Source of the DNA: Butyricimonas sp. Marseille-P3923
GTDB lineage: Bacteria; Bacteroidota; Bacteroidia; Bacteroidales; Marinifilaceae
Reading direction: 5' to 3'
Length of the DNA stretch: 64,000 nt
Assembly: GCF_900184685.1 (NCBI RefSeq)
Contig: NZ_FXXL01000007.1
Span: 2,108,001-2,172,000, forward strand
Shown: in pieces, positions 2,876 to 60,940 of the stretch
Layout of the letters: every line of letters begins with the position of its first letter
Position numbering within the stretch: the first letter of the stretch is position 1
The notes under the pieces: generated by a model
The model's database searches: none
What the model saw: the letters and a program-made list of their open reading frames with translations, nothing else
Told to the model about the DNA's origin: nothing
Program-made: the position numbers and the translations under genes

Positions 2876-2897
2876 ACCATATTTTATTACATTCATA

Positions 2898-5516: not shown

Positions 5517-5526
5517 ATATCTTGTT

Positions 5527-25882: not shown

Positions 25883-26013
25883 AAACTCTACCCGATTGAA
25901 ATACAAACGCATAATCCCCCATCGCCACAACCTGTTAAAAAATATAATCGCTATTCTTTTGAAATCCCGAGGAAATTCCGCTTCTTTGTAAGTTGAATAG
26001 GAGAAAGTAAATA

Positions 26014-27735
26014 ATGAAGAAAAGATGGGTTATCAATACCCCACCCGAGTGGGCAAAAATAGACGCATTATCCAAAGATCTTGACTGCAGTTACGTCATT
26101 GCAAACCTGTTACTTCAACGGGGTGTGAATACTGCAGAAGAGGCTCATGCTTTCTTCAACCCAACCCTTAACATGCTGCACGATCCATTCCTGATGAAGG
26201 ATATGGATAAAGCGGTCACCCGATTGGAGAGAGCCATTGGCAACGAAGAAAAGATCATGATCTATGGCGATTACGACGTGGACGGGACAACAGCTGTAGC
26301 CTTACTTTACAAGTATCTCAAGAACAAATGCGAGAATCCGGAATATTACATCCCGGACCGTTACACGGAAGGATACGGGGTTTCCATTCGTGCCATTGAT
26401 TACGCGGCAGAGAACGGCATATCACTGATGATCGTCACCGACTGCGGGGTTAAGGCTGTTGAAAAGGTACGTTATGCCAAATCAAAAGGCGTGGATGTTA
26501 TCATCTGCGACCACCACACGCCGGGAGATGAACTTCCCGATGCCGTGGCAGTCCTCGATCCGCAACGAAAAGACTGTAATTACCCCTACCGCTGGCTAAG
26601 CGGTTGCGGTGTCAGTTTCAAACTAGCACAGGCATACAGCCTCAGACACAACCTCTCCATGTCCGACTTGTACAAGTTGCTCGATCTGGTTTGTGTCAGC
26701 ATAGCTAGCGATATCGTGCCGATCACGGGAGAGAATCGTATTCTTGCTTATTTCGGACTGTTGCAATTGAACCAGAATCCCAGTCTTGGGCTGAAAACCA
26801 TATTGAAATTCTCCGGTATTGACAAAGACCTAACCGTGAACGACATCGTATTCCGCATAGGACCGAAAATCAACGCGGCAGGTCGGGTAGAATCGGGGAA
26901 CAAATCCGTGGAACTGCTGATTGCCGATGACGAGAAAAAAGCGGCGGAAGTTGCAGGAAGCATCAATAACTTCAACGACCAACGCAAAAAACTCGACCAC
27001 GACATCACCGAAGAAGCCCTCGAATACATCAACCAATCCCACTACGATCAAACCCAAAAAGCTACCGTACTTTACAACCCAAACTGGCACAAAGGTGTCA
27101 TCGGTATCGTGGCTTCCCGGTTGACGGAATACTACTATCGCCCGACAGTCATCCTCACCGAATCAAACGGTCTGGCAACAGGCTCCGCCCGTTCCGTGGA
27201 AGGATTTGACTTGTACTACGCCATCTCGCAATGTAGCGAGTATCTGGAAAATTACGGCGGACACAAATACGCAGCAGGTTTGACGTTGAAACTGGAAAAC
27301 ATAGAGCCTTTCAAAACCAAATTCCAAAAAATCGTGAGCGAAACCATCACCGAAGAGATGTTGACGCCTCAAATCAATATCGACGTGCAAATCAAACTGA
27401 ACGATATCACGGCGGAACTCTACACGATGATTCAAAAATTCGCCCCGTTCGGTCCCAACAACACGATTCCGGTATTCATGACCGACAATGTGACAAACTT
27501 TATCGGCTCGAAACAAGTGGGCAGAAACAATGAACACCTCAAGTTAGTGGTTGTTGACGACACCCGCTTATGCAACGACCGGAGCGGTATCGCCTTCGGC
27601 ATGGGGGAAGATTTCTCCCGCATCAGCAAAGGTGAATACTTCGATATATGCTATACCCTGCAGGAAAATGAATTCATGGGCAGGAGTGACATACAAATGA
27701 TGATCCGTGATATAAAATTCAAAGAAGAGGAGTAA
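26014..27735 (+). CDS. recJ: Single-stranded-DNA-specific exonuclease RecJ
   Basis: A 573-residue 5'-3' single-strand exonuclease used in recombination and mismatch repair. DHH-family motifs are IYGDYDVDGTTAVALLY, IVTDCGVKA and ICDHHTPG in the N-terminal half. The DHHA1 motif YGGHKYAAG is in the C-terminal half, followed by the OB-fold (NNTIPVFMTDNVTNF). AGGAGA stands 12 bp before the ATG, a good ribosome-binding site for this group. The next gene, recR, starts 2 bp after the stop, so the two repair genes form an operon. Confidence 0.97.
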   Translation: MKKRWVINTPPEWAKIDALSKDLDCSYVIANLLLQRGVNTAEEAHAFFNPTLNMLHDPFLMKDMDKAVTRLERAIGNEEKIMIYGDYDVDGTTAVALLYKYLKNKCENPEYYIPDRYTEGYGVSIRAIDYAAENGISLMIVTDCGVKAVEKVRYAKSKGVDVIICDHHTPGDELPDAVAVLDPQRKDCNYPYRWLSGCGVSFKLAQAYSLRHNLSMSDLYKLLDLVCVSIASDIVPITGENRILAYFGLLQLNQNPSLGLKTILKFSGIDKDLTVNDIVFRIGPKINAAGRVESGNKSVELLIADDEKKAAEVAGSINNFNDQRKKLDHDITEEALEYINQSHYDQTQKATVLYNPNWHKGVIGIVASRLTEYYYRPTVILTESNGLATGSARSVEGFDLYYAISQCSEYLENYGGHKYAAGLTLKLENIEPFKTKFQKIVSETITEEMLTPQINIDVQIKLNDITAELYTMIQKFAPFGPNNTIPVFMTDNVTNFIGSKQVGRNNEHLKLVVVDDTRLCNDRSGIAFGMGEDFSRISKGEYFDICYTLQENEFMGRSDIQMMIRDIKFKEEE

Positions 27736-27737
27736 AC

Positions 27738-28355
27738 ATGCAATCTTTATCGTCCAAATTACTGGAAAAAGCGGTAGAACAATTTGCTTCCCTCCCGGGA
27801 ATAGGACGCAAAACCGCCTTACGTTACGTGCTGCACATGCTCCGGCAAAGTCCCGAGGAAGTGAAGCAATTCACGGATAGCATCACAGCCTTGAAAGAAT
27901 CCATCCGGGAATGTCGTCAATGCCACAATATCTCCGACGAAGACATTTGCGAAATCTGCTCCGATCCCAAACGGGATGCACAGACCATCTGTGTCGTGGA
28001 AAACATCAAGGACATCATGTCCCTCGAAGCCACTGGACAATATCGCGGACTCTACCACGTCCTCGGCGGCATCATCTCGCCCATGGACGGTATCGGTCCC
28101 TCCGACCTCAACATCACGAGCCTGCTGGAACGGGTAGCCAACACCCCCGTGAAAGAAATTATCTTTGCCCTCCGTGCCACCATCGAAGGCGACACCACGG
28201 GTTACTACATCTTCAAGAAACTACCCCGTAAAGACGAATTACTCGTCAGCACTCTCGCCAAAGGCATCGCCGTTGGCAATGACCTCGAATACACCGACGA
28301 ACTCACCTTGGGGCGTTCCATCGTGAACCGGGTAAGATTTGAGCTGAACGGGTAA
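27738..28355 (+). CDS. recR: Recombination mediator RecR
   Basis: A 205-residue RecR protein of normal length. It has an N-terminal helix-hairpin-helix (FASLPGIGRKTALRYVLHM), a zinc finger with four cysteines (CRQCHNISDEDICEIC), and a Toprim domain (TICVVENIKDIMSLEATG). With RecF or RecO it loads RecA at single-strand gaps. It is cotranscribed with recJ. Confidence 0.97.
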   Translation: MQSLSSKLLEKAVEQFASLPGIGRKTALRYVLHMLRQSPEEVKQFTDSITALKESIRECRQCHNISDEDICEICSDPKRDAQTICVVENIKDIMSLEATGQYRGLYHVLGGIISPMDGIGPSDLNITSLLERVANTPVKEIIFALRATIEGDTTGYYIFKKLPRKDELLVSTLAKGIAVGNDLEYTDELTLGRSIVNRVRFELNG

Positions 28356-28405
28356 ATATAATCTCATCTATACTCTCCTTCTATCCTCCTCCACGAGAAA
28401 AACAA

Positions 28406-28433
28406 GAGAGGCAGAAATTTTCTCCTGCCTCTC
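28406..28433. terminator. Convergent terminator after recR and lipoprotein cassette 1
   Basis: GAGAGGCAG and CTGCCTCTC form a perfect 9-bp stem with a 10-nt loop, with an A-rich run on the left (T-rich for the minus strand). It stands between recR and the end of the first cassette. Confidence 0.7.
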
Positions 28434-28440
28434 CATTTAT

Positions 28441-29580
28441 TTAATCGCCTACCACTACATCTTCATTCTCTCCCTTCTCCCAATCCTCTTCCGTGCCTCC
28501 CGGTCGGACAGTTTCTCCCGGCTCACCAATCTCGATATCTTCCGAGTTTCCCGTTTCCCAGTCACCGGGGAAGATTTCCAGTTCGACATCATTCTTTTTC
28601 TCTTCGATCTTGTCGTCCGGCAAAATTTCGGTCTTTCCGGTTTCATCCGTCGTTTCCACTTTATTCAAAGTAGACTCCAGTTGCCCGTCACCGGAAGTAC
28701 TCTCGTTGACTTCCATATCCATCACAACTTGCATATCCGGGTTCGTTTCCACGGCAAGACTGAAAAGATGGGATAAAATTATCTCCTCTGAATCATCTTT
28801 CGCGATAATATTACACTCGATATTATTATCTCCCGCGCTACCGCCTTCATTTATCACAGCGATATTCATCGTTGCCGAGTAATTATTATCTCCCTCGGCA
28901 CGACCCAGCCCTCTCGCCAAACCGCTTTTCGCCATCGGCACGAATACCGTTCCCGGATTCTTCCATTCCGTATCCCCGAAACCAAGCGTTGTCCCCACGT
29001 TAGGGACAAGCACTCCCGCTTCGGCAATTCTCCCGGAATTATCCGTCATCTGGACTTTCGTTGCCACGAGCGTCCGTTTCACGGTAAGCTCCGCTTTCGT
29101 GTCCTCGTCACCCACGGTTAACGTATTCTTGGCAAAAAGCACGTCGCCCAGCGGGGTGAAATTGGCTGCATTATTCTTCCTCGTCAACTGAATCTTCATA
29201 TCGGCAAGAGCCGTACCCACGGCATCACCCGCTATATTGGCATCCTCCGGTACATTACCCACGAATGCGAGCGTATAGCTTCCCTTATCCAATTCCACGT
29301 CTTTAATATCCGCCACGGAATTATACTTGTAGCTTTTCTGCAATTTTCCCGCTTGGTCAAACACGTACAAACGCACGTGCGAGATAATCCCTTTCAGACC
29401 GGCATCATCCAAATTGCCGACACCGCTTTTCAAGGTAAATCCGACCTTCACGGTTTCCGTTCCCGGGGTTGGGTCCGGATTCGGCTCTGGATCCGGTTCT
29501 GGCTCTCCACTTCCGCCGCCGCAACTGCAAAAATTAAGCGCCAACGACAATACCATGAATATATAAATAAACTTTTTCAT
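28441..29580 (-). CDS. FimB/Mfa2-like lipoprotein with acidic repeat tail, cassette 1 gene 3
   Basis: A 379-residue lipoprotein. The lipobox is near NFCSCGGGSG and is followed by a Pro/Glu/Asp-rich linker (EPEPDPEPNPDPTPG). The main domain resembles FimB/Mfa2-type fimbrial proteins (HVRLYVFDQAGKLQKSYKY, GSYTLAFVGNVP). The C-terminus has two copies of a 14-residue acidic motif (DWETGNSEDIEIGE and DWEKGENEDVVVGD, residues 340-353 and 366-379), the second ending exactly at the stop. The homologue at 33756-34904 is highly similar. It is probably a surface-anchored subunit of a fimbria-like or adhesin complex with the two upstream lipoproteins. Confidence 0.75.
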   Translation of the reverse strand: MKKFIYIFMVLSLALNFCSCGGGSGEPEPDPEPNPDPTPGTETVKVGFTLKSGVGNLDDAGLKGIISHVRLYVFDQAGKLQKSYKYNSVADIKDVELDKGSYTLAFVGNVPEDANIAGDAVGTALADMKIQLTRKNNAANFTPLGDVLFAKNTLTVGDEDTKAELTVKRTLVATKVQMTDNSGRIAEAGVLVPNVGTTLGFGDTEWKNPGTVFVPMAKSGLARGLGRAEGDNNYSATMNIAVINEGGSAGDNNIECNIIAKDDSEEIILSHLFSLAVETNPDMQVVMDMEVNESTSGDGQLESTLNKVETTDETGKTEILPDDKIEEKKNDVELEIFPGDWETGNSEDIEIGEPGETVRPGGTEEDWEKGENEDVVVGD

Positions 29581-29619
29581 TCAATACATTTTAATGGTTA
29601 TTACTAGAACGCTTTATCA

Positions 29620-32520
29620 TCAATTCCGATACCCGTTCACCGTTATCGTTCTCTCCAAATCGGAATTACGTGAACGCAAACGCACGAGAATCTCACACGA
29701 GGACACACCTTCCGGCATCACCAGTTCCCCTTTCGTCCACGCACCTCCAGTCCCATCTGCCGGTCCCATATCCAAGATACCGTCACCTCCAATACATTCC
29801 GTTTCAATATACCAGTCCGTATTTGAAAGTATTTCAAACGTGAATGAATCGCCTGCCGCCACTTTATACGAGTACCCACTCTCTACTTCAAGTTTCTCTA
29901 CCGTTGCAGATTCTTGATAAATCGGTACATAAACACTACGAGTCCCGGACTGAACGATAATATTCCCGTGTCTGGAATTATGCTCCCCGAATAATCCCGG
30001 TTTTACCCTCACGGTCAAAGAAGCATCACCTTCCCCTTTTAAAACCCCAGCATTATACTTGACACTATCGGCACCATGTGCCAAAGTCACGAAATTATCG
30101 TGATAAATATCCAATTGACAACTCCACGCTCCGTCAGCTTTAATCTCAAGATCAAACATCTGACCTTCACCTGAAGCATAAATATCTCGAGGTGTTACAA
30201 CAAGAATGATCCCGTCCGGGCTAAAATTCGGGGAAGCCTCCGCGTAAACATACAATGTTCTATTAATATATCTTTCCAACAACACGGAAGGCAACTTCCC
30301 TGTCAGATTCGGATTCTTCGACAAGTCAAGATCCTCCAAATTCGTCAGACCGTTAAACGAGTCCGGAATTGTCGTAAGCCCACAATTCGTCAATGTCAAG
30401 TACTCCAACGTACTCATTTGTCCCAACCAATCCGGCAAACCGTTCTGTGCAAAAACAGGAGAATATATAGTCAAATCTTCCAATCTCAAATCCTTTATCG
30501 CTTGAATATTGGTAGGAATAAGATTATCATTCGCCAAGGCCAATTCCCGCAAAGAAGTCCACCGTGTCACGGTAGAAGGAATCTCTATACCACTGAACCC
30601 GGCAAGTCCTAAACCGGTAAGCGATTCTCCCGTCATATTCCATAAAGCATTCGGGAAAGTACAATTGGTTCCCGCCTGAATGAACAAGTATTTCAAATTT
30701 GTCAATTTACTAAATTCAACATCAACCGAAGAAATAGCTGATTTAGAAAGATCGATATCCTCATCCTTGCCATCATCTTCATAAGGTACTTCAAAAATAA
30801 GCACTTGTAGGTTTACTAGATTAGCAATATGAGATGGAATGGTGGTTAAACTCTCGCTGCACACCTCTAACAATTTCAAACTAACAGGCAATTCGGGCAA
30901 AGTCGTGGCATTCGTGTAAACCGAAAACTCTTCCAACTTCCCCATATCTTTGATAAATGCCGGAATTTCAGCCAGACAGCCATAAGAACTTTCGCCAATA
31001 GTAAAACAATTCAATTCGGTCAAGTTCTTTAAAGACTCCGGTAAATTCCAAACCGCCAAAGTTCCATTTCTTGAAATTCCGTTACTTGTTTTCGCAATTT
31101 TTGCCGACTTTGCAACACCCCCGTGGTCGTAATCGTCATCATTACCATAATCTTCCAGTTGAGAATAACCTATTCTCACGACACGTCCGGCTGCATCCGT
31201 TTCCACGTCATACCACAAATTAATATTATCCCCGTTCCAATTCGAAACACTTAATCCTGCCGCTCTCATCGCATCCCGTAATTCCAACATGGCAGCTATA
31301 TCGGTATCTGCCACATCCGGCATCTTCGGCAACACGACCACCACGTTGCCCGTCGTATCGAGTACCACGTTCTTCACCGGGGCAGGCAGTGCATAAAGAT
31401 TATTATCCACTGAATCCCGCAATGAAATATTTTGCAAGGTATAATTCCCGGCAAGCACCCGGTCACGACACTTCACGATAAGCGTATCCTTGCTAACGTA
31501 AAGGGAATTGTACGAGTCATATTTATTGGCATGCAAAGAATACACGTGCTCTCCTTTACCATCCACGATATCAGCCATCAGATGATGAACCCGGTTAAAA
31601 TTCACCGTTGAACCGTTCTCCACCAAGAATTTCACAGTCAAACTATCAAGATATATTTTCTGAATTGCCGTAATATCCTCACTCTCCGAAGCTCCCCACT
31701 CTTCCAAGCTCATTTCAATCGCCACGTCGAAAACACCTCCCACGACATTCACCTTCGCATTGATCGTGTGAATCTTGTTTGCCTCCACCTTATTTTTCAA
31801 TGCAGACACGTAAGTCTTTATTTCGCCATCCTCCACGATCACGAATTTCAAGCGAGCCAGAGAATCAACACAAGTCGGGAAAGCTATCGCCTGACCTTTC
31901 ATCAATTCCCCATCCTTGCTCATCGGCACTTTCAATTGTGCTTTCGTGTCTTTGGGAGTCCCGTTAAAACTCACGGATTTTGGGGAACCCAACAAAGTCA
32001 CGCTTTGCAATTCCACGCCTCCTTTCAACCCGCTCACGTTGATATCCAGACGTCCCACCATACGGCTTAAAGCGACATCGCTCGTCTTATCCTCACCCAC
32101 CGTGATCTTATCCGTACCGGAGAAAATACTACCGGGCAAAATAATATCACCGTTAGCATCCGCTTGCAACGTGACAACAATATCATCCAGTTTAGCACCC
32201 TCTGCCAACCCGCTAATCTGTTGTTTGTCAATATTGGAAAGATAAGCAAAAGTATAAGTACCCAAAGGCAATTTCACGGGAGTCACGTTAGCCAACCCGT
32301 CATATTCCTTTTGTTGCGAGAAAGTACCGTCCTCGTTAAAAATCAATAAATGCAAACCAGTAATTTCCTTGCTTAACGCGTCCGCCGACAAATCAGAAGA
32401 CCTGCTGCTGAACGTCAAGGCAACCTCTTTACCCGGACCTTCACCTTCGAGCTGATCTTCCCGGCATCCCGTGAACAACACGGTCGACAATACAATGAGA
32501 GTATATAATATTCTTTTCAT
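29620..32520 (-). CDS. Large adhesin-like lipoprotein: FimB/Mfa2-like, LRR and BACON-like domains, cassette 1 gene 2
   Basis: A 966-residue lipoprotein (LFTGCREDQ lipobox). In order: a FimB/Mfa2-like N-terminal domain (about 25-290; LHLLIFNEDGTFSQQKEY, GTYTFAYLSNIDK), a beta-rich linker, leucine-rich repeats (about 480-765; IPAFIKDMGKLEEFSV, LTNLEDLDLSKNPNLTGKLP), and two BACON-like modules (about 785-965; WSCQLDIYHDNFVTL, then VPIYQESATVEKLEV). The architecture points to surface binding of a macromolecule. No enzymatic motif is visible. It lies between two smaller FimB/Mfa2-like lipoproteins with gaps of 17-40 bp, and the paralogue at 34941-37901 has the same design with divergent LRRs. Confidence 0.8.
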   Translation of the reverse strand: MKRILYTLIVLSTVLFTGCREDQLEGEGPGKEVALTFSSRSSDLSADALSKEITGLHLLIFNEDGTFSQQKEYDGLANVTPVKLPLGTYTFAYLSNIDKQQISGLAEGAKLDDIVVTLQADANGDIILPGSIFSGTDKITVGEDKTSDVALSRMVGRLDINVSGLKGGVELQSVTLLGSPKSVSFNGTPKDTKAQLKVPMSKDGELMKGQAIAFPTCVDSLARLKFVIVEDGEIKTYVSALKNKVEANKIHTINAKVNVVGGVFDVAIEMSLEEWGASESEDITAIQKIYLDSLTVKFLVENGSTVNFNRVHHLMADIVDGKGEHVYSLHANKYDSYNSLYVSKDTLIVKCRDRVLAGNYTLQNISLRDSVDNNLYALPAPVKNVVLDTTGNVVVVLPKMPDVADTDIAAMLELRDAMRAAGLSVSNWNGDNINLWYDVETDAAGRVVRIGYSQLEDYGNDDDYDHGGVAKSAKIAKTSNGISRNGTLAVWNLPESLKNLTELNCFTIGESSYGCLAEIPAFIKDMGKLEEFSVYTNATTLPELPVSLKLLEVCSESLTTIPSHIANLVNLQVLIFEVPYEDDGKDEDIDLSKSAISSVDVEFSKLTNLKYLFIQAGTNCTFPNALWNMTGESLTGLGLAGFSGIEIPSTVTRWTSLRELALANDNLIPTNIQAIKDLRLEDLTIYSPVFAQNGLPDWLGQMSTLEYLTLTNCGLTTIPDSFNGLTNLEDLDLSKNPNLTGKLPSVLLERYINRTLYVYAEASPNFSPDGIILVVTPRDIYASGEGQMFDLEIKADGAWSCQLDIYHDNFVTLAHGADSVKYNAGVLKGEGDASLTVRVKPGLFGEHNSRHGNIIVQSGTRSVYVPIYQESATVEKLEVESGYSYKVAAGDSFTFEILSNTDWYIETECIGGDGILDMGPADGTGGAWTKGELVMPEGVSSCEILVRLRSRNSDLERTITVNGYRN

Positions 32521-32537
32521 TTCGCTATCATTTTAGA

Positions 32538-33338
32538 TTATAAATCAGATACTTTTTCCTCACAAACCGCCTTATTTCCAGCATCCCCGGAACGAGCTAT
32601 CGAGGAACCGGGCACCAACGTGATATTCAACTCCAGCTTCTTGTTGCGTTCGATGCATTTCTCGGACTTGAAATCAAAATAAGACTCGTTCTTGTACTCA
32701 TCATAAACAACAATCGTCCCGCTCACCACATTTTTTGTCGGGAAACAATAACATTCGTAGCCTCGCTCAAGGTTATAAGAATCCCATTGGGGAATAATAG
32801 TATAATCATTCACCTGAATCTCGTCCAATTCCGGACGATCGAAAAAAATATGCATCGCGTAAAATTCATCCTCATTCACCACGTTCACGACAAGTCCCCC
32901 AACCAGACGGTTCATCACCACCGTTTCGGAAACATTTGTACCGTCCATTCGAACCACACCTCCAAACAATTCGGGAAGAGTATAATAATCAGATTGCAAA
33001 AACAACACATTCTTGTCCTTATCTCTCAAAACAACATAGTTCGATTGTTCCTCTCTATCATTACCCAACACGAAAAACGTATGTTCGCCGGCATCCAAAT
33101 CCTTGAACGCTATTGGTTCTCCCGCGGCAAAATAAACCGGCTCACATACTTCATCGGACTTCAAATAAGTAAGGTCATACACCGAAGCAGACATCCCTTC
33201 CTCCGGAACCACACCTTCACCGGAACGCACAGCCAACTCCAAACCACTTTCCGGAATTTCCGTTTGCTCCATTTCACTCTTCTGGGAACAAGCCCCGAAA
33301 AGAAATAAACAAAAAACTGCAACTAGAACTTTTCTCAT
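32538..33338 (-). CDS. FimB/Mfa2-like small lipoprotein, cassette 1 gene 1
   Basis: A 266-residue lipoprotein (LFLFGACSQKSE lipobox) with features of the FimB/Mfa2 anchor family: ASVYDLTYLKS near the N-terminus, AGEHTFFVLGND, and VVMNRLVGGLVVNVVNEDEF, which matches the conserved R(M/L)VG core of the fold. It is the first gene of the cassette. The upstream sequence shared with cassette 2 (around the start codon and 5' leader) suggests common regulation, but no exact -7 box was found on the minus strand. Confidence 0.7.
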   Translation of the reverse strand: MRKVLVAVFCLFLFGACSQKSEMEQTEIPESGLELAVRSGEGVVPEEGMSASVYDLTYLKSDEVCEPVYFAAGEPIAFKDLDAGEHTFFVLGNDREEQSNYVVLRDKDKNVLFLQSDYYTLPELFGGVVRMDGTNVSETVVMNRLVGGLVVNVVNEDEFYAMHIFFDRPELDEIQVNDYTIIPQWDSYNLERGYECYCFPTKNVVSGTIVVYDEYKNESYFDFKSEKCIERNKKLELNITLVPGSSIARSGDAGNKAVCEEKVSDL

Positions 33339-33702
33339 AATTTCGCAATTAAAATTTACACTTGTAATTCTATCTGTCTCTCAATTATTTAGCAATCAAC
33401 CAATAAACTAATTCATTTTGTTTAATAATGACAAAACAATGTTTCATATATTAAATATCAGATGATTACAGTCTTAAAACATATCAAAAAATGTTCAATT
33501 AATGATAACTTAATAATATCCGAAGACAGCACGCCTAATAGAAATACAACTCCCTGTGTATGAATTTTAAAAATAAATAGATGGATAATCACAAATAATA
33601 AAAAATGTCTTATATTTGTGAATCATTAAACGAAGGTTATTTGATTCTCAACAAATTATCATATAAACTTTTATAGATAATTATAAATATCACAATAAAA
33701 AA
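33339..33702. other. AT-rich intergenic region between the two cassettes
   Basis: Non-coding as far as I can see. The part next to the start codon resembles the region upstream of cassette 2 (ATTACAAGT...AAATT). Around 33590-33622 there is a 9-bp inverted pair TCACAAATA/TATTTGTGA enclosing a plus-strand TATATTTG. The segment 33605-33650 resembles 38945-38990. Confidence 0.6.
33611..33618 (+). promoter_or_regulatory. Plus-strand -7 box (TATATTTG) without an obvious gene
   Basis: An exact TAnnTTTG in a block also conserved upstream of cassette 2. No plus-strand gene follows; a transcript would reach the hairpin at 33703-33737 after about 110 nt. Confidence 0.35.
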
Positions 33703-33737
33703 AAGGCCAACTAATTTGCAATAAACCAGTTGGCCTT
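33703..33737 (-). terminator. Rho-independent terminator of cassette 2
   Basis: AAGGCCAACT and AGTTGGCCTT form a perfect 10-bp stem with a 15-nt loop. On the minus strand it is followed directly by a run of eight T. It lies 18 bp after the stop of the last cassette 2 gene. Confidence 0.9.
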
Positions 33738-33755
33738 CAAAATTTATCTATAAAA

Positions 33756-34904
33756 CTAATCGGTCACAACGACATCTTCTTCCTCTCCTTGCTCCCAATC
33801 CACTTCCGAGCCTCCCGGTCGAATAAAATCTTCCCGCTCACCAATTTCCACGTCCTCCGAATTTCCCGTTTCCCAATCACCGGGGAACACCTCGAGCGTC
33901 ACGTCGGTTTCCTTGACTTTAATCTTTTCGTCCGGCAATTCCTCCGTCTTCCCAGTTTCATCTTTCGTTTCCACCTTGTTCACGGTCGATTCGAGTTGCC
34001 CGTCACCGGAATCACTCTCGTTCACCTCCACGTTCATGGAAACTTCCGTGTCCGGTTTGGTTTCCGCGACAACATTTATCACTTGAGCCAACACCACCTC
34101 TTGTGAAGCATCCTTTGCGATGATATTACACTGGATATTATTATTCTCCCCGGTACTGCCACTACCACTCTCGCTCACCACTGCGATATTCATCGTCGCC
34201 GAGTAGTTCTTATTCTCGTCATCCGCCCGCGAGAAACTTCTTGCCGCTCCGCCTTTCGTCATGGTCACGAACACCGTTCCGGGATTCTTCCACTCCGTGT
34301 CCCCGAAAGCCAGCGTTGTTCCCACATTAGGGATAAGCACTCCCGCCTCCGCAATTTTCCCGGAATTATCCGTCATCTGTACTTTAGTGGTCGAGAGCGT
34401 TCGTTTCACGGTAAGCTCCGCTTTGACCTCCTCCTCGCCTACCATCAACGTATTTTTCGCGAAAAGCACATCTCCAAGCGGGGTGAAATTAGCGGCGTTC
34501 TCCTTCCTCGTCAATTGAATCTTCATATCGGCAAGAGCCGTACCCACCGTTTCCCCGGAAATATTCCCATCCTCCGGCACATTCCCCACAAATGCCACCG
34601 TGTAGCTTCCCTTCTCCAATTCAACGCTCTTGATGTCCGCCACGGAATTATATTTATAATTCTTCAACAACTTTCCCGCCTGATCAAACACGTACAAACG
34701 CACGTGCGAGATAATCCCTTTCAACCCGGCATCATCCAGACTGCCGATACCGCTCTTCAAGACAAATTCAACCTTCACGTTTCCCGTTCCCGGCGTTGGC
34801 TCCGGTTCTGGCTCCGGTTCTGGACTATCCCCTCCGCTACCGCCACAACCACAGAATCCCAGCGACAGCGACAACACCATGAATATATAAATCAATTTTT
34901 TCAT
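33756..34904 (-). CDS. FimB/Mfa2-like lipoprotein with acidic repeat tail, cassette 2 gene 3
   Basis: A 382-residue paralogue of the protein at 28441-29580. The start MKKLIYIFMVLSLSLGFCGC was chosen because it matches that homologue; the frame opens at 34934. The lipobox is followed by an extended PEPEPEPEPTPG linker encoded by a hexameric repeat. The central domain is almost the same (GLKGIISHVRLYVFDQAGKL), while the region around residues 210-300 is more divergent. The C-terminal pair of acidic motifs is kept (DWETGNSEDVEIGE, DWEQGEEEDVVVTD). Long nearly identical stretches suggest a recent duplication or gene conversion with cassette 1. Confidence 0.75.
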   Translation of the reverse strand: MKKLIYIFMVLSLSLGFCGCGGSGGDSPEPEPEPEPTPGTGNVKVEFVLKSGIGSLDDAGLKGIISHVRLYVFDQAGKLLKNYKYNSVADIKSVELEKGSYTVAFVGNVPEDGNISGETVGTALADMKIQLTRKENAANFTPLGDVLFAKNTLMVGEEEVKAELTVKRTLSTTKVQMTDNSGKIAEAGVLIPNVGTTLAFGDTEWKNPGTVFVTMTKGGAARSFSRADDENKNYSATMNIAVVSESGSGSTGENNNIQCNIIAKDASQEVVLAQVINVVAETKPDTEVSMNVEVNESDSGDGQLESTVNKVETKDETGKTEELPDEKIKVKETDVTLEVFPGDWETGNSEDVEIGEREDFIRPGGSEVDWEQGEEEDVVVTD

Positions 34905-34940
34905 ACTATACATTTTAACGGTTACTACTCGCACGCTTCA

Positions 34941-37901
34941 TCACTTCATATTCGTGGAATCCCTCGGAATCTCCCCGGAATGAGAACGTCCTATTACAGT
35001 AATCACTCTCTCCTCTCCACTTCCCCATGACCTCAAAATCACCAGTATCGTGCATGACGCAACACCGTCCGGCATCTCAAGCACGCCCGTTAAAGTTCCA
35101 TTTCCAGTTCCATAACTCGGTTCCATGTTCAACCATCCCTCTCCGTCAATAAGTTCTGAACGAACCTCCCATTCCGTGTTAGAAGACACATCCAGCACAA
35201 ACATATCTCCCGCCATCAAAGAACACGAATCTTTAACACTCGTTTCGAGTCTTTCTTCTTGCGCCATTTCCTGTTCAATAGAGATATAAGCAGAATGCTG
35301 AGTCCCAACACGCACTTGAAGATGCCCGCTATATGACCACCCCGAAAACATAGCTTCCTTCACTATTACTTTCAATGTCGCATTTCCACTCCCCGACAAT
35401 ACCCCTGTTCCGACAATACTATCATTTTGGAAAAATTCTCCCTGCTCCGGTATCACTGTTACAAAATCATTCATACTAGCATTCAACTGACAACTCCACT
35501 CTGAATTAGTCTTAATATCAACCGTGTACACTCCTCCCTCGACCGGAGCGTAAATCCGTTCCGGTGTTACTTCCAACCAAAGTCCATCAGGAGTAAATTC
35601 TTTTGATTCCGGAGCGTAAACAGACAGCATACCATCATTATACCGCCTCAACAATACAGAAGGCAACTTCCCTGTCAAATTAGGGTTACGCGGCATATCA
35701 AGATCATGCAAATTCACTAAACCGTCAAAAGAGTCCGGAATAGACGTGATACCGCAATCATACAACGTCAAATATTCCAACCAACTCATTCCACCCAACC
35801 AAGCCGGAAGTCCACCTTGTCCGAAAACAGGTGAATAAATCATCAAATCGTTCAATTTCAACTCCTTTATAGCCTCTATATCCACGGGTGTCATCTTGGC
35901 ATTCCCAAATGTCAAATCCTCCAACACATTCCATTTACTTACCGAAGCCGGTACTTGAATACGGCTAAAACCATAAAGCCCTAATTCGTGCAGGTCACCG
36001 CCCGGCAAATCCCATATCCCATTCGGAAGCTCACAATTCGTTGCCCCTACAAGGCACAACGCCTTCAACTCCGTCAATTTATCAAAACTCATCTCTACCG
36101 ATGAAACACTCGCCTGCGACAATGCCGGCAAATAATCATAATCATACTCTTCATTCTCCTCGTAATCGGGAACCGTAACAATCAACACTTGCAATCGCGT
36201 CAAATCCCCGATATGAGCCGGAATCCGTGTCAGCGTCTTACTCCTAACTTCCAAATATTTCAACCCGGCAGGCAATTCTGGAAGCGTGGTACTATTTACA
36301 GTAACCGCCAATTCTTCCAAATTAGGAATTTCTTTTATAAAAGCGGGAATTTCCGACAAAACGCCATAATCAGATTCCTCATCCGAGATATTGCAATATC
36401 TTAACGCAGTCAAATTCTTAAACGACGCTGGCATTACCCAAACAGACTGCATGTCCGCCGTTCTTGATACTGCCCTCGACATTGTTGTGGACGCAGTTTT
36501 AGCAAAACGGCTCCGGTCATAATCATAATCGTAATCATCCAAATTGGAATAACCGATCCCGACAACACGTCCCTCGGTGTTCAACTCGACTTCATACCAC
36601 AGATTAATATTATTCCCGACCCAACTCGAGGGTAAATCGACACCAGCCTCTCTCATCGCATCCCGCAACTCCAGCAAAGCCGTTTTGTCATTCTCTGCCA
36701 CCTCAAGCATCGCGGGCAAAGCGACATGCACGAGTCCCATCGTATCGAGCACCACATTTTTCACCGGAGCAGGTAAAGCATACAACCGATTCATCTCCGA
36801 ATCCAATATCTCAATATTCCGAATCGTGAAATTTCCACACTCTTGCCGCCCAAAAGAAGATATGACAAGAGTATCACCAAACACCTCAAGTTTTTGCATT
36901 TCATCATCTTTTCTTCCATTGATTCCAAATATTTTATTTTTTCCATCAATAAAACTGACAGTAACCTCTTGTATTTGCTCCAAATTCTCCAGTACGTTTC
37001 CCGTGGCTAATCTCACCACCCATCCATTGGCATACAATTTCTCATTCGCAATAATATCCTCGCTCATCGTTTCGCCCCATTCCTCTACACTCATCTCGAT
37101 TTCCACGTCGAAAATATCACCCATAACATTCACTTTCACGTTAATAGAGTGAATCTTATTTGCCTCCACTTTATTCTTCAACTCTGCCACATATATTTTA
37201 TCAACACCGTTCTCCACGATCACAAACTCCAAACGAGCTAAAGAATCAACACATGTCGGAAATACTATCGCCCGACCTTTCATTAATTCGCCTTCCTTAT
37301 TCATCGGCACATTCAACCGTGCTTTCGTATCCTTGGGGGTTCCGTTAAAACTCACGGATTTCGGAGACCCCAACAAGGCCACACTCCGCAACTCGACACC
37401 ACCTTTCAACCCGCTCACGTTTATATCCAAACGCCCTACTATACGACTCAATCGGGCTTCGCTAGACTTATCTTCCCCCACCGTGATTTCATCTGTACCA
37501 GAAAAAATACTACCGGGCATAACAACATCTCCGTTTGCATCCGTTTCCAAGGCAACCACCACATCATCCAAACTCGCTCCCTCTTTTAACCCGCTAATCT
37601 GGTTCTCGTCAATATTAGAAAGATAAGCAAACGTGTAAGCCCCCAACGGCAATTTCACGGGCTTCACGTCCGCTAAACCGGCAAACTCTTTTTGTTGATA
37701 AAAGACGCCACTCTCGTCAAAGATTAACAAATGTAACTTTTCAACCTCCTTGGTTAACTCCTCTACAGACAATTCAGAAGACCTGCTACTAAAAGTCAAA
37801 GCAATATCCTTCACCGGAACTTCACCTTCCAATTGCTCTTCCCGGCATCCCGTGAAAAACACAGCTGACAACAATACAAGAGTATATAATATTTTTTTCA
37901 T
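34941..37901 (-). CDS. Large adhesin-like lipoprotein: FimB/Mfa2-like, LRR and BACON-like domains, cassette 2 gene 2
   Basis: A 986-residue paralogue of the protein at 29620-32520, with lipobox FFTGCREEQ. The N-terminal FimB/Mfa2-like domain is nearly identical to the paralogue (SSRSSELSVEELTKEVEKL, GSPKSVSFNGTPKDTKA). The middle part (about 300-400) and the LRR region (LPELPAGLKYLEVRSKTLTR, GLVNLHDLDMPRNPNLTGKL) differ more, as if the ligand-facing part is diversifying. BACON-like modules follow (WSCQLNASMNDFVTV; ISIEQEMAQEERLE). Like its paralogue it should be anchored on the outer membrane and exposed or assembled with the flanking small subunits. Confidence 0.8.
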   Translation of the reverse strand: MKKILYTLVLLSAVFFTGCREEQLEGEVPVKDIALTFSSRSSELSVEELTKEVEKLHLLIFDESGVFYQQKEFAGLADVKPVKLPLGAYTFAYLSNIDENQISGLKEGASLDDVVVALETDANGDVVMPGSIFSGTDEITVGEDKSSEARLSRIVGRLDINVSGLKGGVELRSVALLGSPKSVSFNGTPKDTKARLNVPMNKEGELMKGRAIVFPTCVDSLARLEFVIVENGVDKIYVAELKNKVEANKIHSINVKVNVMGDIFDVEIEMSVEEWGETMSEDIIANEKLYANGWVVRLATGNVLENLEQIQEVTVSFIDGKNKIFGINGRKDDEMQKLEVFGDTLVISSFGRQECGNFTIRNIEILDSEMNRLYALPAPVKNVVLDTMGLVHVALPAMLEVAENDKTALLELRDAMREAGVDLPSSWVGNNINLWYEVELNTEGRVVGIGYSNLDDYDYDYDRSRFAKTASTTMSRAVSRTADMQSVWVMPASFKNLTALRYCNISDEESDYGVLSEIPAFIKEIPNLEELAVTVNSTTLPELPAGLKYLEVRSKTLTRIPAHIGDLTRLQVLIVTVPDYEENEEYDYDYLPALSQASVSSVEMSFDKLTELKALCLVGATNCELPNGIWDLPGGDLHELGLYGFSRIQVPASVSKWNVLEDLTFGNAKMTPVDIEAIKELKLNDLMIYSPVFGQGGLPAWLGGMSWLEYLTLYDCGITSIPDSFDGLVNLHDLDMPRNPNLTGKLPSVLLRRYNDGMLSVYAPESKEFTPDGLWLEVTPERIYAPVEGGVYTVDIKTNSEWSCQLNASMNDFVTVIPEQGEFFQNDSIVGTGVLSGSGNATLKVIVKEAMFSGWSYSGHLQVRVGTQHSAYISIEQEMAQEERLETSVKDSCSLMAGDMFVLDVSSNTEWEVRSELIDGEGWLNMEPSYGTGNGTLTGVLEMPDGVASCTILVILRSWGSGEERVITVIGRSHSGEIPRDSTNMK

Positions 37902-37917
37902 TTCTTCCGCATTTAAA

Positions 37918-38730
37918 TTACAACTCCAAAACCTTTTCCTCGCAAATTACCGAGTTCACAACATCTATCGACCGACCATGCGGCGCCGCCTTAGTCAAGG
38001 TCAAATTCAATTCCAACTTCTTATTCCGTTGTATACTGTTTTTCGCTTCAAAATCGAAACAATACTCATTCCAATATTCGTCATAAACAACGACTTCTCC
38101 GAATACTGCTCCTTTCGAAGGAAAGAGATAAATATCTTCACCAACCTCAAATTCCTCCCATGAATGCGACATTAACGGTATAAAAGTATAGTCACCTAAT
38201 AAAATTTGTTCCGAATCATAGCAAGAAGCATCCAATCTCACACGTATATTGTTAAACTCCGACTGATTGACTACATTCACTTTCAAGCCGCCAACCAAAC
38301 GATTCATTTCTACAAACATCATCTCACTTGCACCGTCTGCCTTAATCACACCTCCCAAAAGCTCGGGAAGCCTACGACCGCTCCACCATCCAAATTCAAA
38401 CACGTTCTGTTCACGATCACGAATAGAAAAATGACTTCCATCATCTTCCCTTCCGTTTCCTAACACGAAAAACGTGTGTTCGCCCGGTTGTAAATCTTGA
38501 TAAACAATCTTTTCTCCTGCCGCAAAATACTTCACTTCAAAATGAACTCCCGCAGGCAATCCCGTAAGTTTATACACAGAAGCAGGCATTCCTGTGATAA
38601 TCATACTATCAACAGATCGCACTCCCAATTCCAAGCGACTCCCGGTAACTTCCGGTTGCCCTTTTTCATTTTCTCGGGAACAAGCCCCTAGAAAAAATAA
38701 ACACAAAATTGCAACTAGAACTTTTCTCAT
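37918..38730 (-). CDS. FimB/Mfa2-like small lipoprotein, cassette 2 gene 1
   Basis: A 270-residue lipoprotein (FFLGACSRENE lipobox), homologous to 32538-33338: PASVYKLTGLPAG, PGEHTFFVLGNGRED, VEMNRLVGGLKVNVVNQSEF, and a shared end CEEKV-x-x-L. It is the first gene of cassette 2, with a 16-bp gap to the large adhesin gene. It may be the anchor or minor subunit of a type V pilus-like structure, but no FimA/Mfa1-type major subunit gene is visible in the window. Confidence 0.7.
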   Translation of the reverse strand: MRKVLVAILCLFFLGACSRENEKGQPEVTGSRLELGVRSVDSMIITGMPASVYKLTGLPAGVHFEVKYFAAGEKIVYQDLQPGEHTFFVLGNGREDDGSHFSIRDREQNVFEFGWWSGRRLPELLGGVIKADGASEMMFVEMNRLVGGLKVNVVNQSEFNNIRVRLDASCYDSEQILLGDYTFIPLMSHSWEEFEVGEDIYLFPSKGAVFGEVVVYDEYWNEYCFDFEAKNSIQRNKKLELNLTLTKAAPHGRSIDVVNSVICEEKVLEL

Positions 38731-38978
38731 AATTTTACGATTAAATTAAAACTTGTAATTTCATTTATTTTTCAATCACTCAATATTACACTCTAACAAT
38801 CAAACGATTACCCCCAAAACACACGCTCAAAAAAGGATCGTTTATTGATAATTCGGCTCGCAACGCACGACGATCATCAACAAATTCACAACTATTTGAT
38901 TGTGAATTTCGAAAATAAAATAGCTATCATTTACTAATAATGAAAAAAGTCTTATATTTGTACATTATTAAACGATCG
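38731..38978. other. Intergenic region upstream of cassette 2
   Basis: An AT-rich, apparently non-coding region. The first ~40 bp and the block around 38945-38978 resemble the corresponding parts of 33339-33702, showing that the duplication unit included flanking DNA. It contains TATATTTG (38953-38960) and a 10-bp palindrome AACGATCGTT (38971-38980). Confidence 0.55.
38953..38960 (+). promoter_or_regulatory. Plus-strand -7 box (TATATTTG), conserved with the one at 33611
   Basis: An exact -7 consensus, followed by the palindrome AACGATCGTT. It is 227 bp from the next plus-strand gene, which has a nearer -7 box, so its target is unclear. Confidence 0.35.
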
Positions 38979-39110
38979 TTATTTGATTTCAATAAATAAC
39001 GCAATAGTAGTATCCGAGTCCATGAAATTTTTCCGGATATACCCGTACATGTCCGTGATAATATCCTTTGCCCCCTCCTCTTCTCGGAAAAAACTTAAGC
39101 ATGCACGCAC
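38979..39110 (-). pseudogene. Possible 3' gene remnant
   Basis: The minus-strand frame ending at 38979 reads like a real protein end (FFREEEGAKDIITDMYGYI, then DTTIALFIEIK). Its 5' part runs into the promoter region of the plus-strand gene at 39187 and looks non-coding. The final codons (AAATAA context) are also visible in the homologous block near 33631. I do not recognise the family. It may be debris from the duplication or a chance open frame. Confidence 0.25.
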
Positions 39111-39154
39111 AAATCCTTGTAATAAGTATTGAACCAATATCCAAACATTTATAT

Positions 39155-39162
39155 TACATTTG
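39155..39162 (+). promoter_or_regulatory. -7 box (TACATTTG) of the DUF3791/DUF3990 pair
   Basis: An exact TAnnTTTG, 24 bp before the ATG at 39187. A TTG at 39129-39131 could serve as a loose -33 element. Confidence 0.55.
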
Positions 39163-39186
39163 TGATATGATATAATACAAATAACC

Positions 39187-39636
39187 ATGGAAATATCTAA
39201 AACTCATCATGAAGACCTAAGCCAATCTATGCTCCCGTTTATCATACGAGAATTGGTTGGTATGGTCATGAAAAAAAAATCATTGCCTTTGGATGATGCA
39301 TTGTACTATATATACACGAGCAATTTATATAAATCTTTATTGGATGAAAATACAAAACTATGGTATTCAAGCACACTATTGCTATATGAAACATTAGAAA
39401 AAGAGAAATCAGAAGAAAAACGCCACCGGAACAATGATGAAAAGACGCTTCTTTTCAAAGTATTCTGTTTAGAGAATTACAAAAATTCAAAAAAACTATC
39501 CCCGGAAGAAACATTATTATTATTTTCCAAATATCATGTGTTTGATTTCTTGGAAGAAACATTTGAAATGCTTCACACGCAGGATAACGAATACATATTA
39601 GATACTATAACAACATATATCCACAAAAAGAAATGA
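39187..39636 (+). CDS. DUF3791-like protein with two related domains, probable antitoxin
   Basis: A 149-residue protein. The C-terminal half (VFCLENYKNSKKLSPEETLL, LFSKYHVFDFLEETFEML) matches DUF3791. The N-terminal half (FIIRELVGMVMKKKSLPLDD, ALYYIYTSNLYKSL) looks like a second divergent copy of the same fold, so it may be a fusion of two such units. DUF3791 genes typically precede DUF3990 genes in predicted toxin-antitoxin modules. Here the stop overlaps the next start by 4 bp (ATGA), which supports translational coupling. Its role as antitoxin is inference. Confidence 0.75.
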   Translation: MEISKTHHEDLSQSMLPFIIRELVGMVMKKKSLPLDDALYYIYTSNLYKSLLDENTKLWYSSTLLLYETLEKEKSEEKRHRNNDEKTLLFKVFCLENYKNSKKLSPEETLLLFSKYHVFDFLEETFEMLHTQDNEYILDTITTYIHKKK

Positions 39637-40112
39637 AATTATATCATGGCTCAACCGTTGTCGTAAAACATCCCAATATACAAAGAGGACGAAAAGCGAC
39701 AGACTTCGGGAAAGGTTTCTATACGACAACCAATTTTGAACAAGCAAAAAAATGGGCTTTACTCAAAAAGAACCGAGAGCAAAGCGATAAAGCAATAGTT
39801 TCTATTTACGAAGTTCCGGATAATATCCTTGATAGTGATTACTCCGTCCTCCGATTCTCGGGAGCCACAAAAGAATGGCTAAAATTTGTTGTAAATAACC
39901 GCAGAGGAAAAAACACCCAAAAATATGATTTGGCCATGGGTCCCGTTGCAAACGACCAACTATACGCGACCATCCGTCTATACGAACAAAGTGTTATTAC
40001 AGCTGATGCGGCAATAGAAATGCTAAAAACACACAAACTATTCAATCAACTTTCATTCCATACAACTGAAGTTGCTTCATTACTAAAATTTGTAGAATCA
40101 ATCGAAGTTTAA
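39633..40112 (+). CDS. DUF3990 protein, putative ADP-ribosyltransferase-like toxin
   Basis: A 159-residue DUF3990 protein. The N-terminal LYHGSTVVVKHPNIQ and DFGKGFYTTTNFEQA resemble the first half of ADP-ribosyltransferase-like folds (H-G-S/T and the GxGFY(T/L)T turn). The remainder (GPVANDQLYATIRLYEQ, then FHTTEVASLLKFV) is typical of the family. It is coupled to the upstream DUF3791-like gene. Toxic activity and target are not known from sequence. Confidence 0.8.
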   Translation: MKLYHGSTVVVKHPNIQRGRKATDFGKGFYTTTNFEQAKKWALLKKNREQSDKAIVSIYEVPDNILDSDYSVLRFSGATKEWLKFVVNNRRGKNTQKYDLAMGPVANDQLYATIRLYEQSVITADAAIEMLKTHKLFNQLSFHTTEVASLLKFVESIEV

Positions 40113-40341
40113 AATCATGAAATAAAGCTACCCCTTTCCTACCCTTTTCCTAAAATTTTGAGCGAGTTTCGGGCGGGATTCAAGTGACTATTAGGCGGCA
40201 TCGCCCACTCTTCGCCTGATGTTCGCCCACACTTAGCCCACGTTTTAACGAAATATAAGGAAATTTAAAACTCACGCGTGGCACGTCCTCCGAATCAATA
40301 ATATCGCTCTCGAAAACCTATCTTAGCCCTATGCGGGAGTA
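40113..40341. other. GC-shifted intergenic region with repeated CGCCCAC-like words
   Basis: A 229-bp gap between convergent genes. It contains TCGCCCAC, TTCGCCTG, TTCGCCCAC and TAGCCCAC in quick succession (about 40199-40241) and a CGGGCGGG tract. No gene is seen. It could be a repeat remnant or a site tied to insertion of the neighbouring toxin-antitoxin-like pair. Confidence 0.4.
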
Positions 40342-40818
40342 TCACGGGCGGGTATCCCCTAATTTGAAGGAGAAAGGCAATAGCTGACTCGCCTTCACCA
40401 GCAAGGTACTCGTGCGCCCGATAAGGATTACATCAAAATCAGCATGATAGCGCCCGACAATCTCGGACATCACCTGCCGGCAAGCCCCGCAAGGCGTGAC
40501 ATACTCGTCGACCTCGACACCCTTGTCCCGTGCCGCAACGGCTATGGCTTTCACCCCAGCTTCCGGGTAAGCGGAACAGGCATAAAACAAGGCGGTGCGC
40601 TCCGCGCAGAGCCCCGAGGGGTAAGCCGCATTCTCCTGATTCGTGCCCCGAACCACCTCCCCGTTATTCATCAAAACGGCTGCCCCGACAGCAAAACCGG
40701 AATACACGCAATAAGCATTTTCCGTGATTTCCAAGGCGGCACGACACAATTCCTCGTACCCTTCCGGGTAAGATTCCCGGCACAAGATGTAATCTATCTT
40801 TAATTCCGCTTTCTCCAT
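40342..40818 (-). CDS. cdd: Cytidine deaminase
   Basis: A 158-residue zinc-dependent cytidine deaminase that converts (deoxy)cytidine to (deoxy)uridine in pyrimidine salvage. The zinc/catalytic motifs are CAERTALFYA (Cys-Ala-Glu, with the catalytic Glu) and PCGACRQVM. FAVGAAVLMNNGEVVRGTN and ENAAYPSGLCAE are also typical. The start was set at 40818 (MEKAELKIDYI) instead of the far upstream end of the frame at 40863, since the added residues are unlike the family and leave no room for a promoter. It is divergent from the glucosaminidase gene. Confidence 0.94.
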   Translation of the reverse strand: MEKAELKIDYILCRESYPEGYEELCRAALEITENAYCVYSGFAVGAAVLMNNGEVVRGTNQENAAYPSGLCAERTALFYACSAYPEAGVKAIAVAARDKGVEVDEYVTPCGACRQVMSEIVGRYHADFDVILIGRTSTLLVKASQLLPFSFKLGDTRP

Positions 40819-40868
40819 TCTAATTTTTTTCGTAATTTTACCGCCAATATAAAACTTTATCACGAATC

Positions 40869-55762: not shown

Positions 55763-55769
55763 AGTACTA

Positions 55770-58280: not shown

Positions 58281-58291
58281 AATCATCTATT

Positions 58292-60880: not shown

Positions 60881-60940
60881 ACATCTTTTTTTAATACGTC
60901 GAACCAAACACCCCTCTTTTTAAACACAAAGAGTTTTTAA

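Follow-up and report, generated by a model that had tools for sequence, protein, structure and literature searches.

A duplicated cassette of pilin-type lipoproteins in Butyricimonas, preceded by an element of an invertible-promoter family: a possible minimal type V pilus-like adhesin complex

The locus and its distribution

We analyzed a stretch of 64,000 nucleotides from the genome of Butyricimonas sp. Marseille-P3923 (contig NZ_FXXL01000007.1; in our numbering G000:C1:2108001-2172000, where G000 is the genome of the window and the window is the whole stretch), in which three lipoprotein genes, here called A, B and C, occur twice in tandem. The sets A2-B2-C2 (38730-33756) and A1-B1-C1 (33338-28441) both lie on the minus strand, consist of six intact open reading frames (ORFs; Table 1) and are joined by direct repeats with a start-to-start spacing of 5315-5395 bases. 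A tandemly duplicated three-lipoprotein cassette had been proposed in an earlier, sequence-only reading of this DNA, and the reading frames, the direct repeats and the lipobox cysteines described below bear it out. A and B are separated by 16-17 bp, B and C by 36-39 bp and the two cassettes by 417 bp; for C2 the longest ORF has a GTG start at 34934. The cassette pair is bounded by recR (27738-28355, named by reading) and by a DUF3791-DUF3990 gene pair on the plus strand. As hairpins with a T-run come after C2 and C1, each copy is probably its own transcription unit. No RNA family reached its gathering score in the region 26000-41000.

Neither a fimbrillin gene nor a DUF3575 or DUF3868 gene adjoins the cassette according to the ORF lists of the window, which were read by eye, with Pfam applied to the six cassette proteins and a few neighbors. 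Matches to DUF3575 or DUF3868/OmpA were absent from the six cassette proteins by Pfam and from their neighbors by reading. The absence of a nearby major pilin gene, already stated in the sequence-only reading, thus agrees with these lists. No cassette protein scored above a fimbrillin cut-off in Pfam; the presumed canonical fimbrillin of the genome likewise has no Pfam match, and A could be a short stalk.

Our sample of the genus comprised six genomes including G000, and B was found near full length in five of them. The sixth, G001, gave weak B matches only, one of them to the first 80 residues of a protein of ~945 aa, which by reading sits in an apparent fimbrial operon. Family-wide, B is present in 7 of 56 genomes and 3 of 17 genera (E<=1e-20), and among these seven genomes only that of the window has two full copies. 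A precedes B and C follows it in all six other B-bearing genomes, namely in four of the five other congeners (G002 to G005) and in two other genera (G011 and G048); the linkage on which the sequence-only reading depended therefore holds outside the window genome. G002, G005 and G011 each share a piece of 500 bases with contigs named, respectively, Ca. Butyricimonas faecavium, B. synergistica DSM 23225 and an uncultured Butyricimonas sp.; G011 was counted as another genus of the family in the family-wide search. When genome contigs were scanned with B, 79 candidate stretches yielded 3 loci, each in a genome of the family set. The C profile reported one of 393 genomes of the order, the window's own, in a sample which held few genomes of the family, and none of the six other cassette genomes was reported. 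The C homologue of G048 (L047:9230-10359) has its acidic tail in another frame that overlaps the first, either by a frameshift or by an assembly error.

Table 1. Features of the cassette region (positions in the window; nt, nucleotides; LRR, leucine-rich repeat)
Feature	Position	Strand	Description and basis
A2	37918-38730	-	270 aa; small FimA/Mfa-superfamily lipoprotein; ORF, profile-profile match, fold of the paralogue A1
B2	34941-37901	-	986 aa; Mfa2-like, DUF4458-like, LRR and C-terminal beta domains; Pfam, alignment
C2	33756-34904 (from ATG)	-	382 aa; Mfa2-family lipoprotein, probable anchor; Pfam, strand-1 Lys without Arg
A1	32538-33338	-	266 aa; small FimA/Mfa-superfamily lipoprotein; ORF, profile-profile match, AlphaFold model
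B1	29620-32520	-	966 aa; LRR fusion protein; Pfam Mfa2 and LRR, AlphaFold, Foldseek, VIA
B1 residues 31-280, Mfa2-like region	31681-32430	-	best conserved between the copies
B1 residues 281-400, DUF4458-like domain	31321-31680	-	least identical domain between the copies
B1 residues 401-762, LRR solenoid with its N-terminal cap	30235-31320	-	Pfam, model, VIA; cap by eye
B1 residues 763-966, beta domains (BACON unproven)	29623-30234	-	model; Pfam on pieces
C1	28441-29580	-	379 aa; probable anchor lipoprotein; Pfam Mfa2
DUF3791-DUF3990 gene pair	39187-40112	+	divergent from the cassette; Pfam
Hairpin and T-run 3' of C2, probable intrinsic terminator between the cassettes	33703-33737	-	inverted repeat I2; read by eye
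Hairpin and T-rich tail 3' of C1, probable terminator	28406-28433	-	read by eye
Copy-2 element, distal arm	38964-38986	.	23-nt arms, 83% complementary, 114 nt between; 0/60 shuffles as good
Copy-2 element, cassette-proximal arm	38827-38849	.	exact pattern match at genome 2146836-2146977
-7 box TATATTTG in copy-2 element	38953-38960	+	points away from the cassette, predicted OFF; 17 nt from core end
Copy-1 element, distal arm, decayed	33622-33645	.	24-nt arms, 115 nt between; shuffles as given in the text
Copy-1 element, cassette-proximal arm, decayed	33483-33506	.	inverted-repeat search, shuffles
-7 box TATATTTG in copy-1 element	33611-33618	+	points away from A1

A, B and C resemble type V pilin lipoproteins

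The Mfa2 family of Pfam matched both C proteins (C1, E 5.5e-12; C2, 8e-14) and both B proteins (B1, 7e-19; B2, 5.9e-17). A gave no Mfa2 match in the window, and among five A relatives scanned the best value, seen with one relative, was E 0.00087 and below the cut-off. In a profile–profile comparison an alignment of eight A sequences matched the N-terminal domain of B with a probability of 97.8% over residues 1-246; C matched B with 98.1% over 154 columns, and the comparison of A with C was weak (73.8%, 96 columns). An AlphaFold model of A1 computed from five sequences (predicted local distance difference test, pLDDT, 76.1; predicted template modeling score, pTM, 0.73) gave 24 Foldseek matches at E<=0.001, all 24 of them to fimbrial, adhesion or DUF1812 proteins of Bacteroidetes including Mfa2, Mfa3 and FimA. 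The best structure found with VIA was 4k4k_B (Z 11.1, root mean square deviation (rmsd) 5.5, 205 residues aligned). The two-beta-domain fold of FimA/Mfa proteins is thus established for A by its model, for the N-terminal domain of B by profile (Pfam) and model (Foldseek) and for C by profile only (Pfam and profile comparison), so that the FimB/Mfa2-type fold proposed in the sequence-only reading is supported by Pfam, by the profile comparisons and by the A1 and B1 models. By reading, a lipobox cysteine is found at positions 16-20 in all seven A, all seven B and all seven C sequences; the motif script overlooked two of the seven C proteins in which the cysteine is visible. A, B and C therefore resemble lipoproteins of the FimA/Mfa superfamily, the type V pilins. 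The last 10 residues of A form a predicted strand after a loop in the A1 model, and this strand is a possible donor strand.

Protein B joins a pilin-type domain to a leucine-rich repeat

Pfam LRR families match both B1 and B2. Among the Foldseek matches of the N-terminal domain of B1 are 3gf8, 3pay, 4qdg and 5nfi (Mfa2), and residues 401-767 resemble the LRR ectodomain 5ixq_A (VIA Z 22.9, rmsd 4.4, 307 aligned). The VIA list was filled by LRR chains (residues 401-774) and the middle and C-terminal domains of B1 were therefore barely tested by it. The DUF4458 family matched only the homologous piece of the G048 protein (E 1.2e-5; 25.8 bits, cut-off 22.4); the two pieces of the window B proteins covering this region had no Pfam match, so the label DUF4458-like rests on homology to the G048 piece. 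From four C-terminal pieces a single BACON_2 match was obtained, with an E value of 0.039 below the cut-off. LRR and BACON-like modules had both been suggested for B, and while Pfam and the model agree on the LRR, the BACON assignment is not established. Labels of the type III effectors XopAC, XopAE and XopL from NCBIfam were rejected as LRR cross-matches far below their cut-offs.

DUF4458 itself was present in 4 of 149 genomes of the order and in 2 of 30 relatives. Three of these proteins, with reading frames of 881-911 aa in the Bacteroidales genomes G051, G063 and G133, read as DUF4458-LRR proteins, in which a DUF4458-type domain precedes a capped LRR solenoid as in B. They carry two DUF4458 matches each and no Mfa2 part (by reading, not by Pfam), whereas B has one such domain behind its Mfa2 part.

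Divergence and age of the two copies

Between the copies A is 50.6%, B 57.4% and C 75.4% identical at the protein level. Within B identity falls from the Mfa2-like region (76%) to the LRR (55%), the C-terminal domains (44 and 46%) and the DUF4458-like domain (41%). The ratio of nonsynonymous to synonymous substitution rates (dN/dS) between the copies is 0.10 for the Mfa2-like region, 0.24 for the LRR, 0.33 and 0.44 for the last two domains and 0.65 for the DUF4458-like domain. The conserved N-terminal domain noted in the sequence-only reading is therefore seen here as well; its diverging LRR section is found to diverge less than the DUF4458-like and C-terminal domains, and we rejected the LRR as the hypervariable part. 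Variability, counted as distinct residues of 5, is slightly higher at exposed positions of the LRR strands (2.54) than at hydrophobic strand positions (2.08) or elsewhere (2.13). Positive selection was also rejected, as no whole-domain dN/dS was above 0.65 where it was computable; 2 of the 18 values were saturated.

The synonymous distance (dS) between the copies, 1.39 for A, 1.33 for B and 0.86 for C, is near saturation; four flanking genes give 0.70-1.00 when the window genome is compared with G005. A recent duplication was therefore rejected, and the copies should date from around the time of the species split or from before it, unless one of them was acquired; the lower dS at C may reflect gene conversion. 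Copy 2 is closer than copy 1 to the cassette of G005, and in G000 and G005 alike the cassette adjoins recR. Between copy 2 and G005 the dS of A, B and C (0.75, 0.89 and 0.93) is like that of the four neighboring genes, whereas the nonsynonymous distance (dN; 0.21, 0.23 and 0.14) is higher than theirs (0.012-0.025), and the cassette proteins have therefore changed roughly 5 to 20 times faster. With an LRR which is not the fastest part, domain ratios of at most 0.65 and an old duplication, the proposal that the binding part diversifies by duplication could not be upheld.

An inverted-repeat element upstream of gene A

Both A genes are preceded by an inverted repeat which encloses a -7 box. For each upstream region the best repeat was compared with those of 60 dinucleotide shuffles, and no shuffle equalled it in copy 2, G005, G003, G004 and G048. 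The G005 element before A has arms of 92% complementarity with 114 nt between them, and G003 and G004 have similar repeats. The Bacteroidetes promoter consensus consists of TTTG (-33) and TANNTTTGY (-7), as given in the accessible part of PMC8748976. Copy 2 has a perfect -7 and a -33 with one mismatch, copy 1 a perfect -7 and a -33 with three mismatches; the exact -7 box is present in the elements of copy 1, copy 2 and G005 and absent from those of G003 and G004. Paired inverted repeats around a promoter are thus found at the cassette element, with the -7 box in copy 1, copy 2 and G005. In all three this box points away from A; the elements of G003 and G004, which have no box, are collinear with them. 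The flipped copy-2 element would, by our estimate, put the transcription start ~116 nt before A2. The arms of the copy-1 element no longer share a core and this element may therefore be locked. The pairing of element and cassette is seen beside recR in G000 and G005 and at a different site in G003 and G004. In G048 an arm-like motif lies before A, for which no partner arm was found, and in G002 a single arm-like sequence remains before A. In G002 (L037 7043-8786) the cassette stands beside glycosyltransferase-like genes resembling the element flanks at L092 (G000) and L110 (G005).

The exact pattern GATCGTTTA-N110-140-TAAACGATC was found at 24 sites in the six Butyricimonas genomes (3, 2, 1, 7, 6 and 5), and the reversed pattern, used as a control, at none; the copy-1 element does not fit the exact pattern. 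The span is 141-145 bp in 20 of the 24 elements and 128-132 bp in four, the search having allowed 128-158 bp. In 15 of the 24, four of which are near-identical to each other, TAnnTTTG lies exactly 17 nt from one end; four further -7 boxes are at other positions and eight elements are without any box. UpxY genes beside elements were confirmed by NCBIfam in all three candidates scanned, and other elements lie near DUF3575, Mfa2, DUF6562, glycosyltransferase and sigma-factor genes.

At an orthologous UpxY locus the element of G003 (L103:4002-4144) and that of G004 (L106:3984-4126) are 99.3% identical when one of them is reversed and 52.8% identical unreversed, with collinear flanks of 95.5 and 98.0% identity over 200 bp and 97.0 and 98.2% over 400 bp. 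Since the two elements are opposite while their flanks keep their order, we conclude that the element family flips; at the sequence level this pair is direct comparative evidence of promoter-element inversion in the genus. Altogether 11 element pairs with related flanks were compared, of which 3 were reversed, 5 collinear and 3 unclear; the reversed ones are L103-L106, L102-L103 (two loci of one genome) and L096-L108 (66 versus 50%). The element family upstream of A, overlooked in the sequence-only reading, is thus of the invertible-promoter type.

Like the invertons of gut Bacteroidales, for example at the capsule loci of B. fragilis, these elements have paired inverted repeats and an embedded -7 box, and some have UpxY operons downstream. 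They may differ by their repeat core, which is of the AAACGATC type, and by their span of ~142 bp. Invertons beside UpxY, SusD/TonB and fimbrillin genes are described in the accessible part of PMC11892184 and a phase-variable pilus-type locus in that of PMC12632263, and the neighbors of the Butyricimonas elements agree with both.

Two further observations concern the contents of the elements. The element at G000:C1:1789120-1789167 (L091), which stands before other genes, matches the copy-2 element at 96% identity over 48 nt, a likeness which suggests recent copying or exchange between elements. The flanks of the elements L097 (G002) and L107 (G004) are clearly related, yet their insides are unrelated in either orientation (53% and 47%), and the contents of an element may therefore be replaced.

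A possible adhesin complex and its alternatives

The cassette could encode a phase-variable, minimal type V pilus-like adhesin complex with C as anchor, A as adaptor or short stalk and B as tip, a reading to which we give about an even chance. We assign these roles because of the residue at the end of the first strand, Arg in A and B and Lys in C, and because of the possible donor strand in A. The Arg is present in five of seven A and five of seven B proteins (copy 1, copy 2, G002, G003 and G005) and the Lys in all seven C proteins; this list omits G004, which is near-identical to G003. Three canonical fimbrillins of the genome and two accessory or tip proteins likewise have an Arg near the end of strand 1. 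According to the accessible part of PMC5789003, the first strand is removed in shaft and tip and not in the anchor. One match to a C11 (clostripain-family) protease was found in the genome.

In the proposed complex C would be the uncleaved, lipid-anchored base and A a small adaptor or very short stalk. B would be the tip, with its Mfa2-like N-terminal domain plugging into the complex and its arm of DUF4458-like, LRR and beta domains binding a ligand. In the assembled orientation the promoter is directed away from A, so the predicted state of the operon is off; flipping of the ~140-bp element would turn the promoter toward A and the A-B-C operon would be transcribed. We infer surface exposure, cleavage of A and B at the Arg, the role of each subunit, the binding of a ligand and the switching of the cassette elements themselves, and with these the adhesin and fimbria-tip roles. 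The fuller version, a stalkless type V pilus of anchor, adaptor and LRR tip under a flipping promoter, in which the divergent second copy, its switch decayed, would be kept as an alternative binding specificity that is silent or under different control, appears doubtful to us. With type V pili (FimA and Mfa1 fimbriae of Porphyromonas gingivalis, pilins of Bacteroides) the cassette shares two-domain FimA/Mfa lipoprotein precursors, an anchor and a tip subunit extended by a C-terminal domain. It differs by the DUF4458-like and LRR arm of its tip and by the lack of a recognized stalk fimbrillin and of a DUF3575/DUF3868 gene; the mfa1 cluster encodes the shaft protein Mfa1 (PMC5789003, accessible part).

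Several observations weigh against the reading as a switchable pilus-like complex. The Arg is absent from A and B of G048 and from A of G011 and unclear in B of G011, and two of the three canonical anchors listed also carry an Arg inside the first-strand region, which makes the Arg contrast with anchors weak; the accessible part of PMC5789003 names Lys as a putative site in some tip proteins. TM-scores of the A1 model to known pilins are low (0.32-0.45 by query length in Foldseek), and the B1 model has moderate confidence (pLDDT 68.5, pTM 0.52). No recognized stalk, DUF3575 or DUF3868 gene accompanies the cassette. As to the switch, no cassette element was seen flipped, as all face away from A, and five element pairs are collinear (L092-L110, L099-L104, L102-L106, copy 2-G005 and the G003-G004 cassettes), both cassette pairs included. 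The copy-1 repeat is only 79% complementary and was equalled by 2 of 60 shuffles, no significant repeat was found before A in G002 (13 of 60 shuffles as good) or G011 (11 of 60), and the best repeat of G048 is another sequence ~500 bp upstream of A without a -7 box. No invertase is linked to the element in a search for the recombinase family PF00239, which has 2-6 matches in each of the six genomes.

A, B and C might instead be accessory tip or anchor parts which join pili from canonical fimbrial operons elsewhere in the genome. Three other loci read as such operons in the ORF maps, with DUF3575-like, OmpA/DUF3868-like and fimbrillin-like genes and an Mfa2 anchor, and at G000:C1:2188-2197 kb (L049) Pfam found DUF3575, OmpA/DUF3868, Mfa2 and a tip with a FimA domain, the presumed fimbrillin being without a match and named by position. 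The genome has 14 PF08842 matches, cassette included, and the strand-1 Arg of A and B is like that of the canonical subunits. However, the cassette has its own Mfa2-family protein in C, its own upstream element and its own probable terminators, and A-B-C are linked without a recognized stalk in all seven B-bearing genomes; we consider the accessory parts unlikely, though worth keeping in mind. The same standing is given to the idea that the three proteins are uncleaved surface lipoproteins of pilin ancestry forming a static complex for binding or nutrient capture, similar to SusE/F, and no pilus. The lack of a stalk gene, the G048 A and B proteins without a strand-1 Arg and the DUF4458-LRR proteins elsewhere in Bacteroidales, which by reading have no Mfa2 part, would fit such a complex. 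Yet by reading the window cassettes have no directly adjacent gene for SusC/SusD, a glycan enzyme or a transporter, and conservation within B is highest in the pilin-type domain, which suggests contact between subunits. The single cassette of G005 does have a SusC/SusD-like pair and one more ORF upstream of it.

It appears quite improbable to us that the inverted-repeat element lies upstream by chance, as a fixed regulatory site or a small mobile repeat, and does not switch the cassette. The single orientation of every cassette element seen, the decayed arms of copy 1 and the missing repeats of G002 and G011 would be explained in this way, and the copy-2 box, which in the assembled orientation faces the DUF3791-DUF3990 pair, could serve those genes. 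Against this stand the narrow span of 20 of the 24 elements despite the wider range allowed, their differing insides and the fixed -7 position in 15 of 24. Moreover, other members of the family have flipped, and the gene on the far side varies between sites while the cassette is constant.

If the reading as a pilus-like complex is true, the pilin fold of Bacteroidetes can build short surface complexes without a stalk, and Butyricimonas gains a switchable LRR adhesin. Pilin-type adhesins and capsule operons would then be under one family of flipping promoters, and display of capsule and adhesin could therefore be coordinated. In the literature searched on Mfa2/LRR/BACON proteins and on Butyricimonas invertons, screened by title or beginning of the abstract and excluding supplements, we did not find a description of the cassette, and no Mfa2-LRR protein of its kind was found in the accessible part of PMC10434189.

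Another duplicated arrangement in the window

The window holds a second duplicated arrangement, two separate triplets of proteins of ~840-890 aa at 215-8106 and 53108-60907, both downstream of SusD-like genes. By eye these proteins have a zinc-protease-like HExxH...GLMHN motif, which appears degenerate in the member at 55770-58286.

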